Positions 35,095 through 39,365 of a DNA stretch of 46,689 nt are shown in pieces; position 1 is the stretch's first letter, and each line of letters opens with the position of its first letter. The translations under genes and the position numbers were made by a program. The notes under the pieces are model-generated. The model saw only the letters and a program-made list of their open reading frames with translations. It made no database searches and had not been told where the DNA came from. The DNA comes from a virus, in IMG/VR virus record IMGVR_UViG_3300031692_000005, positions 1-46,689 of that record. One strand, given 5' to 3'.

Positions 35095-35500
35095 TGAGGA
35101 TCTGCTCTCCTGGATCGATCGGGTGGCGAGCAATGTGAAGACCCTGTTCGAGCCACCCTATGTGATCGAGGTGGCCGTGTTCCACAAGGGCGCTCCCATG
35201 GAGCTGTTCGACCAGGGAGGGTTCATCTTCGGGTTGGCCTCTCAGCTACGGAGAGACTCGAAGGATCGAGTCAATATGGTCAACCCCGCACAAGTCAAAG
35301 CGGCCGTGGGCCGTCGTCGGCCTCGTGGTCCGACGACGGCATCCACGAAGAAGAACTGGATTGTTCAAGCAGCCATGGAGGACATAGAAGGTGCGCAGGA
35401 TCTTCAAGCCGAGACAAAGAAGCGTAGAGAAGCCCTCGCCGATGCTATCTACATCGCCAAGGCTGGAATCATCCTCTTTGGAGAAGACTCCGCCGGATGA
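34964..35500 (+). CDS. RuvC-like Holliday-junction resolvase (RNase H fold)
   Basis: 178 residues from the ATG at 34964, with AAGGAGG before it. The acidic triad is seen in STGIDPS (Asp8), YVIEVAVFHKG (Glu69) and EALADAIYIAKAG (Asp160), the arrangement of RuvC-type enzymes. A middle VNMVNPAQVKAAVG fits the family's substrate-loop region. Resolves branched DNA before packaging. It overlaps the HTH gene by 131 bases and the methyltransferase by 110. Confidence 0.8.
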   Translation: MLYSTGIDPSVGPSGVLGIVRLRMPPPPARPGIVGRATLVRRNDEDLLSWIDRVASNVKTLFEPPYVIEVAVFHKGAPMELFDQGGFIFGLASQLRRDSKDRVNMVNPAQVKAAVGRRRPRGPTTASTKKNWIVQAAMEDIEGAQDLQAETKKRREALADAIYIAKAGIILFGEDSAG

Positions 35501-36242
35501 ACCCATACCCGATCTCACGTGGAGACTGCGCTGGATGCGAGCGGCCGAGACCATGGCGACCATGCAGGACCCCCATGTGGGTGGCTGGTTCTCGCCGGCG
35601 GAATCTCACATGCTGAGGGACATCTGTTTGACGATGTTGCCGGATACGTTGGCCGTGGAGATCGGCAGCTTCATGGGGAAGAGCACTCGTTGGGCTTACA
35701 TGGGTACGCTCTTCTCCGGCGCTCAACTCGCGTGCGTGGATCCCTTCACCTCCAGCGGGGCGGGAGAACCGGAGCACATCGTCCGGTTCTACCGCAAGCT
35801 GGCCCCTCATGGGAGCTTCTCTGTCTGGGTTGGGAATCTCAGTCCCTTCACGCAGCGGTTGCCCCAGGAGGAGATCGAGGTCCACCTGGAGGAGAGTAGG
35901 AAAGCTGCGGCTTCTTGGGGAGACCGCAAGATTTCCGTACTCTTCATCGATGGACTTCATACAGAATGCCTGTTAGACTTGCAGGCATGGCTCCCCCATC
36001 TGGAAGACCACGCCATGGTGCTCATGCACGACGTCAACGGAAGTGGGGCCTACGGTGAGTCGGGGCCTGACAACACCTACTACCACATGATCCAAGGAGG
36101 TTGGACACCCTATGGAAGAGCAGACTCCCTCGCAGCCCTCACCCGAGACCCCGGTTGGTGGCACACCCGATACGAGTCCATCAACGCCCTCATCTCCTCC
36201 ATCACCGCCGGAGAAGCGGATAATCCTGAAGGTGCTTCCTGA
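35391..36242 (+). CDS. Class I SAM-dependent methyltransferase (Methyltransf_24 type)
   Basis: 283 residues from the GTG at 35391, which has GGAGG 9 bases upstream; the ATG at 35442 is alternative. Motif I VEIGSFMGKST (89-99), the acidic loop ACVDPF (114-119), LFIDGLHT (184-191) and MHDV (212-215) match class I methyltransferases, notably those acting on small molecules or sugars. There is no DNA target-recognition domain. The first 35 residues are basic and lie in the overlap with the resolvase gene. Confidence 0.8.
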   Translation: MRRIFKPRQRSVEKPSPMLSTSPRLESSSLEKTPPDEPIPDLTWRLRWMRAAETMATMQDPHVGGWFSPAESHMLRDICLTMLPDTLAVEIGSFMGKSTRWAYMGTLFSGAQLACVDPFTSSGAGEPEHIVRFYRKLAPHGSFSVWVGNLSPFTQRLPQEEIEVHLEESRKAAASWGDRKISVLFIDGLHTECLLDLQAWLPHLEDHAMVLMHDVNGSGAYGESGPDNTYYHMIQGGWTPYGRADSLAALTRDPGWWHTRYESINALISSITAGEADNPEGAS

Positions 36243-36432
36243 TGGAAGCATGCAGATGGATGATGGGGACCTTCCTCTAAGTTTGCAGTTGGCACTGCTT
36301 CAATCAGGGTTGACGCAGGTGTTCGCGGACACAATCGAGAAGCGCGTTCTTCACTCCATGATGACCATGGCACGTATGGAGCAAGTCATGCAGGAGAAAC
36401 GCATCCTCACAACCAAGGGCATGAAACCATGA
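36112..36432 (+). CDS. Small protein with Pro-rich N-terminus
   Basis: 106 residues, ATG behind AAGGAGG with an 11-base gap. Residues 1-34 are Pro/Ser/Thr-rich (EEQTPSQPSPETPVGGTPD...) and lie in the 131-base overlap with the methyltransferase. Residues 35-106 are a normal domain (RIILKVLPDGSMQMDDGDLP, then helices). Its stop overlaps the start of the 796-residue protein (ATGA). Function unknown. Confidence 0.65.
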   Translation: MEEQTPSQPSPETPVGGTPDTSPSTPSSPPSPPEKRIILKVLPDGSMQMDDGDLPLSLQLALLQSGLTQVFADTIEKRVLHSMMTMARMEQVMQEKRILTTKGMKP

Positions 36433-38819
36433 CGGACAGGATCACCGAGCTGACCGAGGAGCAAAAGCGAGAGTTGTCGGCATGGTACGATGCTTGGTTT
36501 GCCATTGGATCCAGCACGCAGCCGGCGGATCGAAAGACGGCTGAAGATGCGATGCGCAGAGCGTACGAGGAGATCGGGGAAGATCCACCCACATTCTTTT
36601 GGGTGGACTCCCCTTTGTCAGCGGCGCTCCTCATCAAGGTGCTGTCGATCTTGGGCAAGAAGCTGAAAGAGGTGCGCAGTGACCCCTGGGGCAGCTCGTT
36701 GGAGAATAAGCTGTCTATTAGACACCCGAACATGGCCTATCCAACGAACATGGCAATGTCTCTAGCCTTACGGAAGTACCTGTCGGACAGGCTATTTAGT
36801 TCTCTCTTTCGAGTGCTCAATCTTGGCCTGAATATGCCGATATCAGACGAGCTAGAGAATCACTTGAACAGCCCGTTGGAAAATAGGCTAGTGACTCTGC
36901 GCTTGGCGTATATGTCGTGTCTAACGAGTGGAACAATCTCTTCAGACCTGCTCCAGTCCTTGATGGGCTACATCGTTACCGCTCTGCATCAACCGATTCA
37001 TTGGAGCCTGGGGACGTCGATAGCAAACGAGGTGAATGAGTTTCTCGTGAATCCCTTGCACAGCCCGTTGGATAGTAGGCTGCATCAAGCGCTACCAACT
37101 TCATACCCTTGCATGAGCCATGAAGGCATGACTGGGAGGTTCTGGAAAGCGCCAGATGAGATGTCCGAGGGTTTGTACGAGGCACTCTGCCACAGCCTCG
37201 GGCATAAGGTAGATGACCAGCTAAACAATCTTCTGGAGTTGGATCCACTGCCATCCTTTCACCACCGGCTCGACTCAACCGTCAACTATGGAGGTATGTT
37301 TGAATCCTATCTCGTAGCTCCAAGCATCGTTCAATCAACACTTGCACTTTCATTGTTTGATATACTGTCAAACAGACTGCGCCTCACGGTTCGTTCTGCA
37401 CTGCTGGATTCGCTAGAGACGTTGGAATCCTTGCGGAGTACACTGCAAGCAATGAACAGACCTTCCACGATCCATTACAGGTTTGGTCCTCACCCATTCT
37501 TGAGCCTCGAAGCAAGAGCGCACATCAGCAGAGAACTATCCAATCAACTAGCCAACACTACGCTACACCTACAGTTTGTTGTGCATGACGCTCTGGTTAT
37601 GTCGTTGGTGCCATTGGAATCCTTGAGAGAACAACTGATGACCCACGAGTCATTGACTAACGTACGGCGTCTATTGTTCTCCCCTTCCTCTTCTGCTCTT
37701 ACTGTTCGACCTGCTGATGTCATACTAGAGGCATTGACTCACCCTCTGTATAACGCCACTGCGCGTGGACTACGTGAAAGAATCCATCTCAACCTAGCAC
37801 ACGAGATGGACCCAATGGCATCTTTGCGATATGAACTGACGAGGGAACTTGGCATCAGCTTGCGCAGATCCATGCGAAAAGCCGCTGAGATGACTCCGCT
37901 ATGGTCCCCAAGAGTGTTGTTTCGACCGCTGCGTGACACTTACAAACATCTGACCCAAGCTGTGCTGGACACCTTACACGAGATGGACCCATCAGCCTCT
38001 TTGCGATCTGAACTGACGAGAGCACTTGGCGTTAGCTTACAGAGGTCCATGCGAAACGAATCTGGATTGAACTCACTGTGGTACTCAAACGTATATCTTC
38101 GACCCCTGAGTGGCATTCACGACCGATTGCTCGGAGCTGTGATGAGTGCCTTGGATGAGCTGATGGAAAGCAAGGAAGCCTTGGAGTACCCTCCCTTCTG
38201 GCATTGGGGGTCCATGGATTCACATTGGATCGCCTTCTACTCCTTCTGCAACGAGGTGCTGGGGATCAAGTACGCGGAAGAAGACATGCGACGCATGCGA
38301 ATCCATCAGGACCTAGCCAAGTCGTGTGGGTGGGTCGTGGCCTACAAGGGCATCTGTATCTTGTGCGAGCGCCCCGAGGAGATCCATTGGTCCAAGGAAG
38401 GCCCCAAGGTGCTGCACCGAGATATGGGTCCGGCGGTACGTTACCGAGACGGCTTCAGCGTATGGTCTCTCCATGACGTGCGCGTGTCTCGGGAGCTGGC
38501 AGAAACCCCGGCGGACCAACTGCCCGTGGAGATGTTCACGAAGGAGCCCAACGCCGAGATTCGGCGGGAGTTCCTGCGCAAGGTAGGCGTGGAGCAGTTT
38601 TGCCGGAAGCTGGGAAGCACCATCTTGGACCAAGAGGGATTCTACGAACTGCACGAGATCGATCTGGGTGGGGAAACGGGTGCGTGGCCGTGCCTCAAGA
38701 TGAAGAACCCGTCCTTGGGGTGTTATCACATGGAATGGGTATCTCGGGATTGCAAAACGGTGAAGGAAGCTCTACGATTCCGTAACCAGTCGAGTCTGAA
38801 GCCGGAACAACTCACATGA
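36429..38819 (+). CDS. Large repeat protein with DUF6745-like C-terminal domain
   Basis: 796 residues. The N-terminal ~580 consist of about eight ~60-residue helical repeats, each with an (S/A)xL(E/D/R)xxL core: SSLENKL 89, SPLENRL 148, SPLDSRL 212, LESLRSTL 332, LESLREQL 396, MASLRYEL 463, SASLRSEL 522. The last two are near-copies (HEMDP start, 59-residue period). Residues ~595-790 (SFCNEVLGIKY, KSCGWVVAY, CERPEEIH, GPAVRYRDGFSVW, EPNAEIRREFL) match my memory of DUF6745. The repeat part is A/T-richer than its surroundings, suggesting transfer. Function unknown. Confidence 0.75.
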   Translation: MTDRITELTEEQKRELSAWYDAWFAIGSSTQPADRKTAEDAMRRAYEEIGEDPPTFFWVDSPLSAALLIKVLSILGKKLKEVRSDPWGSSLENKLSIRHPNMAYPTNMAMSLALRKYLSDRLFSSLFRVLNLGLNMPISDELENHLNSPLENRLVTLRLAYMSCLTSGTISSDLLQSLMGYIVTALHQPIHWSLGTSIANEVNEFLVNPLHSPLDSRLHQALPTSYPCMSHEGMTGRFWKAPDEMSEGLYEALCHSLGHKVDDQLNNLLELDPLPSFHHRLDSTVNYGGMFESYLVAPSIVQSTLALSLFDILSNRLRLTVRSALLDSLETLESLRSTLQAMNRPSTIHYRFGPHPFLSLEARAHISRELSNQLANTTLHLQFVVHDALVMSLVPLESLREQLMTHESLTNVRRLLFSPSSSALTVRPADVILEALTHPLYNATARGLRERIHLNLAHEMDPMASLRYELTRELGISLRRSMRKAAEMTPLWSPRVLFRPLRDTYKHLTQAVLDTLHEMDPSASLRSELTRALGVSLQRSMRNESGLNSLWYSNVYLRPLSGIHDRLLGAVMSALDELMESKEALEYPPFWHWGSMDSHWIAFYSFCNEVLGIKYAEEDMRRMRIHQDLAKSCGWVVAYKGICILCERPEEIHWSKEGPKVLHRDMGPAVRYRDGFSVWSLHDVRVSRELAETPADQLPVEMFTKEPNAEIRREFLRKVGVEQFCRKLGSTILDQEGFYELHEIDLGGETGAWPCLKMKNPSLGCYHMEWVSRDCKTVKEALRFRNQSSLKPEQLT

Positions 38820-38830
38820 AGGAGGATGCA

Positions 38831-39157
38831 ATGCGGAAGAAGCTGATCCAGCAGGGTGACGTTCTCATGTTCACGGAAGAGGCGTTGCCGGAAGGAGCCA
38901 AGACAATAGCCCCCAAGGCTCGGGGGTACGTCCTGGCGGAAGGGGAAGCCACGGGACACGCCCACGTCATCGTTCCCACGCCCGAGATCGAGATGTACGA
39001 GGACAGCAAGGGGGTCTTGTGGCTGAAGACCGGGACCCCCACGGAGGTGCGCCACGAAGAGCACAACACCGTCACCTTGGAGCCTGGGATCTACCGGGTG
39101 GGCATCGTCCAGGAGGTTGACCCCTTCGAGAACGAGATCCACGACGTCATGGACTGA
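38831..39157 (+). CDS. Small TGHAH-motif protein, partner of the repeat protein
   Basis: 108 residues from the ATG at 38831 (MRKKLIQQGDVLMF), behind AAGGAGG. All-beta sequence with EGEATGHAHVIV, then VRHEEHNTVTLEPGIYRVG and VQEVDPFENEIHDV. From memory, this His-rich small protein type recurs next to DUF6745 genes in phages, plasmids and bacteria, which would make the two a conserved module. Histidines could hold a metal. Overlap-free, 11 bases after its neighbour. Confidence 0.7.
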   Translation: MRKKLIQQGDVLMFTEEALPEGAKTIAPKARGYVLAEGEATGHAHVIVPTPEIEMYEDSKGVLWLKTGTPTEVRHEEHNTVTLEPGIYRVGIVQEVDPFENEIHDVMD

Positions 39158-39182
39158 GAGTTGAAAGGAGGTCTGCACGATC

Positions 39183-39365
39183 ATGTATCCCGTCCAGGAG
39201 CAAGTCGAGAAAGCCGACCGGGAACAGTTGGCGAGATGGCACCGGTTTCTACCGTGCCCCGCGACCACGGAGGAAGCGGACATCATGGAGGAGATCGAAG
39301 AACGCTTTGAAGCCATGGGGGGCTTCACTCCGGAGCTGTCCAAGAAGATCGGGTGGAAAGGGTAG
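39183..39365 (+). CDS. Small conserved-type protein
   Basis: 60 residues, ATG behind AAAGGAGG. Contains ADREQLARWHRFLPCPATTE and an acidic helix, ending MGGFTPELSKKIGW. From memory, short proteins with an REQLARW..FLP...GGFTPE..K.IGW plan are common in phage genomes, without assigned function. Follows the TGHAH gene by 25 bases and may belong to the same unit. Confidence 0.65.
   Translation: MYPVQEQVEKADREQLARWHRFLPCPATTEEADIMEEIEERFEAMGGFTPELSKKIGWKG

Follow-up and report, generated by a model that had tools for sequence, protein, structure and literature searches.

The window analyzed here, meaning the whole stretch of DNA under study, is one viral record of 46,689 bases (IMG/VR IMGVR_UViG_3300031692_000005, positions 1 to 46,689). 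Its minus strand carries the structural genes (internal virion protein, major head protein, portal and terminase), and its plus strand carries primase-like, DNA polymerase, ssDNA-binding, Cas4-like, DnaB-like and RuvC-like genes. At the downstream end of this plus-strand replication region lies a pair of genes, the first encoding a 796-residue protein with a C-terminal DUF6745 domain and the second a 108-residue protein of the TGHAH family (Table 1). Helicase, Cas4-like exonuclease and resolvase genes are found upstream of the pair, and the DNA polymerase gene shares its strand. A gene with a Methyltransf_24 domain (35391-36242, E-value 1.1e-15) is located two genes upstream.

Table 1. Features of the DUF6745 and TGHAH genes, in coordinates of the window
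Feature	Coordinates	Strand	Basis
DUF6745 protein, 796 aa, with diverged repeat array	36429..38819	+	ORF and Pfam/profile match
Conserved N-terminal domain, aa 1-85, with WVDSPLSA motif, common to relatives	36429..36683	+	pLDDT mostly 80-98; N-terminal profile matches relatives
Decayed tetrapeptide array, aa 86-589, low G+C	36684..38196	+	Autocorrelation at lag 4 and multiples; relatives with intact 12-bp arrays
Tandem duplication, 177 bp (59 aa), 1.8 copies	37799..38120	+	TRF and autocorrelation
DUF6745 domain, aa 590-796; second half is part of the constant core	38197..38819	+	Pfam, profile, AlphaFold2, block exchange in relatives
TGHAH protein, 108 aa, predicted all-beta; alternative upstream start at 38816	38831..39157	+	ORF, phrog_27831 match, alignment, fused model
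QQGDV strand motif; in 12 other pairs on the tail of the DUF6745 protein	38849..38863	+	Motif scan, profile
TGHAH motif, aa 41-45; T, G, H, H invariant in 21 relatives	38951..38965	+	Alignment
HEEH motif, aa 75-78	39053..39064	+	Alignment

The two proteins and their neighbor

The preliminary description of this DNA had proposed a 796-residue reading frame ending in a DUF6745-like domain, and both stand: the frame is present, and Pfam PF20530 (DUF6745) matches residues 620-747 with an E-value of 1.8e-16 and a score of 60.5 bits against a cut-off of 27. Our own DUF6745 profile, in which the window sequence itself is included, covers positions 3-216 of 216 with an E-value of 8.9e-82. AlphaFold2 models the protein confidently at residues 1-85 and 590-787, with pLDDT mostly below 50 in the middle. 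No close relative of the whole protein was found by sequence search of viral contigs, and a profile search of PDB sequences returned weak matches alone, confined largely to the array region. The Microcystis phage Ma-LMM01 encodes a protein, gp174 (PF20530/phrog_31813), whose C-terminal domain is homologous to that of the window protein; gp174 has 378 residues and no array, whereas the window protein has a decayed array of 500 residues. The adjoining gp175 is a TGHAH protein, as in the pair of the window. One locus (L161) has two tandem DUF6745 genes, and one 82-kb viral contig (behind L027/L155, G023) has four DUF6745 copies.

The 108-residue protein matches phrog_27831, the TGHAH family, with an E-value of 4.8e-11, and its alignment includes all of the family motifs (QGD, TGHxH and HxxH). 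Its reading frame had been recognized earlier together with a strong ribosome site, which we locate as AGGAGG at 38820-38825. The HEEH motif likely provides metal-binding or active-site residues. The TGHAH protein had no match among PDB sequences in a profile search. Elsewhere in the family, the TGHAH gene is frameshifted in L028 (5001-5300) and also in L158, with the remaining protein running on in another frame.

Further downstream, a 60-residue reading frame (39183-39365) with a strong ribosome site (AAAGGAGG upstream) is present as previously described. Its proposed status as a conserved part of the same module did not survive: we found no match to it in the loci with the gene pair and therefore exclude it as a module member. 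One partial match, of 23 residues, occurs elsewhere (L182:5001-5069).

Pairing, strand transfer and cellular copies

Searching viral contigs for TGHAH genes yielded 28 loci by pattern plus tblastn, and 77 loci with the addition of alignment. Among these 77, a DUF6745 gene is on the same strand within 500 bp of the TGHAH gene in 61, and 10 more have the DUF6745 N-terminus with the domain cut by the contig end. The six others comprise L010, L121 and L174, all very near a contig end, together with L128, with L108, which has a weak match immediately downstream (E-value 7e-4), and with L175, which has none. As a measure independent of neighborhood, both families were searched separately in 296 genomes of one phylum. 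DUF6745 was found in nine and TGHAH in nine, with eight genomes having both, adjacent to each other, in comparison with 0.27 expected (hypergeometric P 6e-14). Both surveys bear out the suggestion that the two families are recurring neighbors. The two genes often overlap or sit a few bases apart, and the pair occurs in phages, many bacterial phyla and Asgard archaea, including copies on plasmids and in a prophage. Named pairs are gp174-gp175 of Ma-LMM01 and gp37-gp38 of the Mycobacterium prophage prophiGD102-1. As we read the surrounding genes, DnaB, integrase, methyltransferase and recombination genes recur around the pairs of the relatives. The window has the features that define the module, with adjacent genes on the same strand and one QGD strand in the pair. 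PF00391 (PEP-utilising mobile domain) was seen below cut-off, at 13 bits against 23.1, in one of 21 members.

The TGHAH protein usually starts with a (R/Q)QGDV strand. At 12 loci, the TGHAH reading frame is without this strand, and the DUF6745 protein instead ends with ...WYQQGDVIL...LT. A profile of the TGHAH N-terminus hits exactly those 12 DUF6745 tails (E-values 4.5e-7 to 0.002, with the next tail at 2.0), and the remaining pairs have the QGD motif in the TGHAH protein. Five pairs were scored as having no motif in either protein, which we attribute to wrongly placed start codons, truncation by a contig end or a variant of the motif. The strand is carried by the DUF6745 protein in both gene orders, and also in two cellular genomes (Planctomycetales and Nitrospirales). 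The tree requires three changes of state, two of which are forced by well-supported branches, and all are within the clade that includes the window. Because the strand is carried by one protein or the other in different pairs, the simplest reading of the sequences is that the DUF6745 and TGHAH proteins probably make up one composite domain or complex, in which either chain can contribute the strand.

A fused model of the L103 pair, built from 75 aligned sequences with the stop between the genes read as glycine, gives pLDDT of around 90 or above over most of the length of both DUF6745 and TGHAH, with TGHAH almost entirely beta. Foldseek found no match in the PDB at an E-value of 0.001 for either model. 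Against a viral library, the fused model matched phage proteins (DUF6745 and related ones) and one protein from Acidianus rod-shaped virus 2 (BFVD A0A0N9P6K3, probability 1.00, 94 columns). This last, model-based match suggests that part of the pair has a relative in an archaeal virus. In such a complex, the two proteins would jointly complete a beta domain with many invariant His, Glu and Asp residues, and this shared domain would be a probable metal-binding or catalytic site.

Ten cellular loci have the pair directly beside STM4011-4015 genes (L070, L073, L075, L176, L177, L178, L184, L202, L203 and L204), spanning Deinococcota, Alphaproteobacteria, Actinomycetota and Verrucomicrobiota. The STM4011-4015 set includes two radical SAM proteins and a hydrolase, together with STM4014, which we take to be ATP-grasp-like, and STM4015, presumably an LRR protein. 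This adjacency suggests a broader biochemical role, with a function not restricted to phages. It is also the basis of the main rival to the conflict-related module that we prefer, in which the pair would be an accessory enzyme of peptide or protein modification tied to STM4011-4015, the array or LRR its substrate or scaffold, and the phage copy a metabolic gene. However, STM genes are absent near the pairs of the viral loci examined, within the available flanking DNA, none were named among the window genes scanned, and many other cellular pairs are also without them. The pair therefore seems to work without STM genes, and we regard this explanation as improbable. A toxin-antitoxin or abortive infection system, with TGHAH as a metal-dependent toxin and DUF6745 as a sensor-antidote completing its fold, would suit the close spacing of the two genes, the invariant His/Glu residues and the copies on plasmids and in a prophage, but appears quite unlikely to us given that no toxin family matched, that PADLOC profiles gave no match for the window proteins, and that some cellular DUF6745 genes (L179, L181, L183, L213 and L214) have no TGHAH neighbor.

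Exchangeable fronts and tetrapeptide arrays

The conserved and variable parts of the module are sharply divided. L127 and L134 have 88% of TGHAH and 89% of the C-terminal half of DUF6745 in common, as compared to 19-36% for the N-terminus, the array and the N-terminal half of DUF6745. At the DNA level, similarity between relatives of this type ends near the start of the DUF6745 reading frame and resumes in the middle of the domain. Block exchange was found in five of the six close pairs tested, with L148/L173 as the exception. In Deinococcus and Methylobacterium plasmids, leucine-rich repeats precede the same DUF6745 C-terminal half. From these comparisons of sequence, we infer that the C-terminal half of DUF6745 and TGHAH form a constant and probably catalytic core, and that the exchangeable front (N-terminus, array and first half of DUF6745) may be a recognition module. 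The preliminary description had envisaged a repeat-bearing recognition part, a conserved effector-like end and a small partner. The exchange of the front as a block, the constancy of the core and the strand transfer agree with this layout, but the partner is the TGHAH protein and not the 60-residue one, and the repeats turn out to be decayed tetrapeptides.

About eight helical repeats spaced at 58-67 residues had been proposed for the array of the window. Residue autocorrelation over residues 81-590 has its top peak at lag 4 (z 5.5), with others at 8, 12, 16, 20, 28 and 64, and the only genuine long repeat detected is a tandem duplication of 59 residues (z 10.3 within residues 441-590). The proposed spacing is therefore a mixture of this one real duplication with echoes of the 4-residue period; the remainder of the array is decayed 4-residue periodicity. 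For the middle of the protein, AlphaFold2 gives helices at low confidence alone. The local base compositions quoted earlier are exact by count (38.3% G+C at 37321-37380 and 65.0% at 38401-38460). G+C content of the array region as a whole is 50% compared to 57% for the window, a value equally low in just 0.2% of stretches of the same size.

In relatives, the N-terminal domain is separated from DUF6745 by an array whose units are 4 residues long (12 bp) or, in some cases, 3 residues long (9 bp), and these arrays are near-perfect and hypervariable. Examples of the units include (x-[AD]-S-V)n, (x-S-A-V)n, (x-D-Q-L)n, (x-D-N-L)n and (A-[RL]-[DA])n. The 9-bp form is present in L127, L168, L170 and L116, with stretches that include ARDALDALA and NATWATSAT. 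Nicking-endonuclease profiles of PADLOC matched relatives within the low-complexity array, and these matches were rejected as composition-driven. In the window, a decayed array takes the place of a regular 3- or 4-residue array between conserved ends. Several other module members are also without a regular array, which makes the array a common but not a defining feature. Tuning through repeat slippage has probably been lost in the copy of the window, its array having decayed.

Among 34 arrays with 9- or 12-bp units (for example, those of L134, L118 and L140), the summed nucleotide diversity of codon positions 1 and 2 (23.1 and 24.5) exceeds that of position 3 (7.0), and many of the arrays have zero third-position variation over 15-40 units. 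This pattern is the reverse of neutral drift and fits recent turnover of the arrays combined with selection on the residues. Of 716 units that follow the [VLI]-x-y-[SNQ] register, most have R, G or W at x, and most have D, A or S at y, a position that the pattern limits to six residues. Wide variation of unit type among phages, a Ma-LMM01 gp174 without an array, and a reading frame that has stayed open in the window while its array decayed could all be explained if the array were a product of slippage or a passive spacer that plays no part in recognition, and the module an ordinary phage enzyme. Yet the almost invariant third positions, alongside variation at the positions that change residues, and the narrow alphabet shared among arrays point to selection on array residues, and we doubt that the array is passive.

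Tweety gp54 and the proposed role of the module

In gp54 of the mycobacteriophage Tweety, a 12-bp tetrapeptide array varies at codon positions 1 and 2 while third positions are fixed (PMC2884959), and a gain or loss of repeats allows mutants to escape the defences of the Phrann and MichelleMyBell prophages (PMC9262239, PMC8549241). Fixed N- and C-terminal parts flank this array, the length of which differs among relatives, in a layout like that of the DUF6745 relatives (PMC2884959, PMC9262239, PMC8549241). Tweety gp54 (phrog_3416) acts as a counter-defence against Phrann gp29/gp30. The same 12-bp array with variable codon positions 1 and 2 is seen in the DUF6745 relatives but not in the window itself, where the array is no longer regular, and in contrast to the DUF6745 genes, Tweety gp54 has no TGHAH neighbor. 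Homology was rejected at the level of sequence, as neither profile nor BLAST searches matched the ends of gp54 to DUF6745 or TGHAH proteins. We thus treat gp54 as a lead by analogy to how the module may work, and not as a member of the family.

With a probability of roughly 0.42, we favor the explanation that the window carries the phage copy of a widespread two-protein module, having a variable front and a constant core and related to conflict. The exchangeable front would set recognition, with the length and sequence of the array acting as a tuner. In phages, the module would most likely work within the host during the early stage of infection, either against the defences of the host or of prophages or in company with them. 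The case for a defence or counter-defence role is one of analogy only, drawn from Tweety gp54 together with the position of the pair in the early gene region. A part in phage-host conflict is our best guess on this analogy, and a tunable two-protein complex is the form that we rank as most likely, with moderate confidence.

A more specific version is that the arrays are a residue-coded, evolvable recognition element, in which every unit of 3 or 4 residues combines a hypervariable site (R, G, W and others) with a nearly binary one (D or A/S). They would read a polymer or another repetitive partner and be coupled to a conserved DUF6745-TGHAH effector. We consider this a long shot; if true, phages, bacteria and Asgard archaea would share a compact, modular system of recognition.

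DUF6745, phrog_31813 and phrog_27831 are already catalogued, without function. In the literature searched, no paper names DUF6745, STM4011-4015 or SEN3800, and the partnership of phrog_27831 with DUF6745 is likewise absent, so that the module, the strand transfer, the exchangeable fronts and the arrays appear to be undescribed there. For the tunable two-protein complex, the transfer of the strand between partners opens a direct and cheap test of complex formation. The window adds a module member whose array has decayed. The resemblance to Tweety gp54 would make tunable tetrapeptide arrays approachable in a second, apparently unrelated family. A widespread two-gene module whose front is exchanged as a block, and whose array varies chiefly at residue-altering sites, bears the marks of an arms race.
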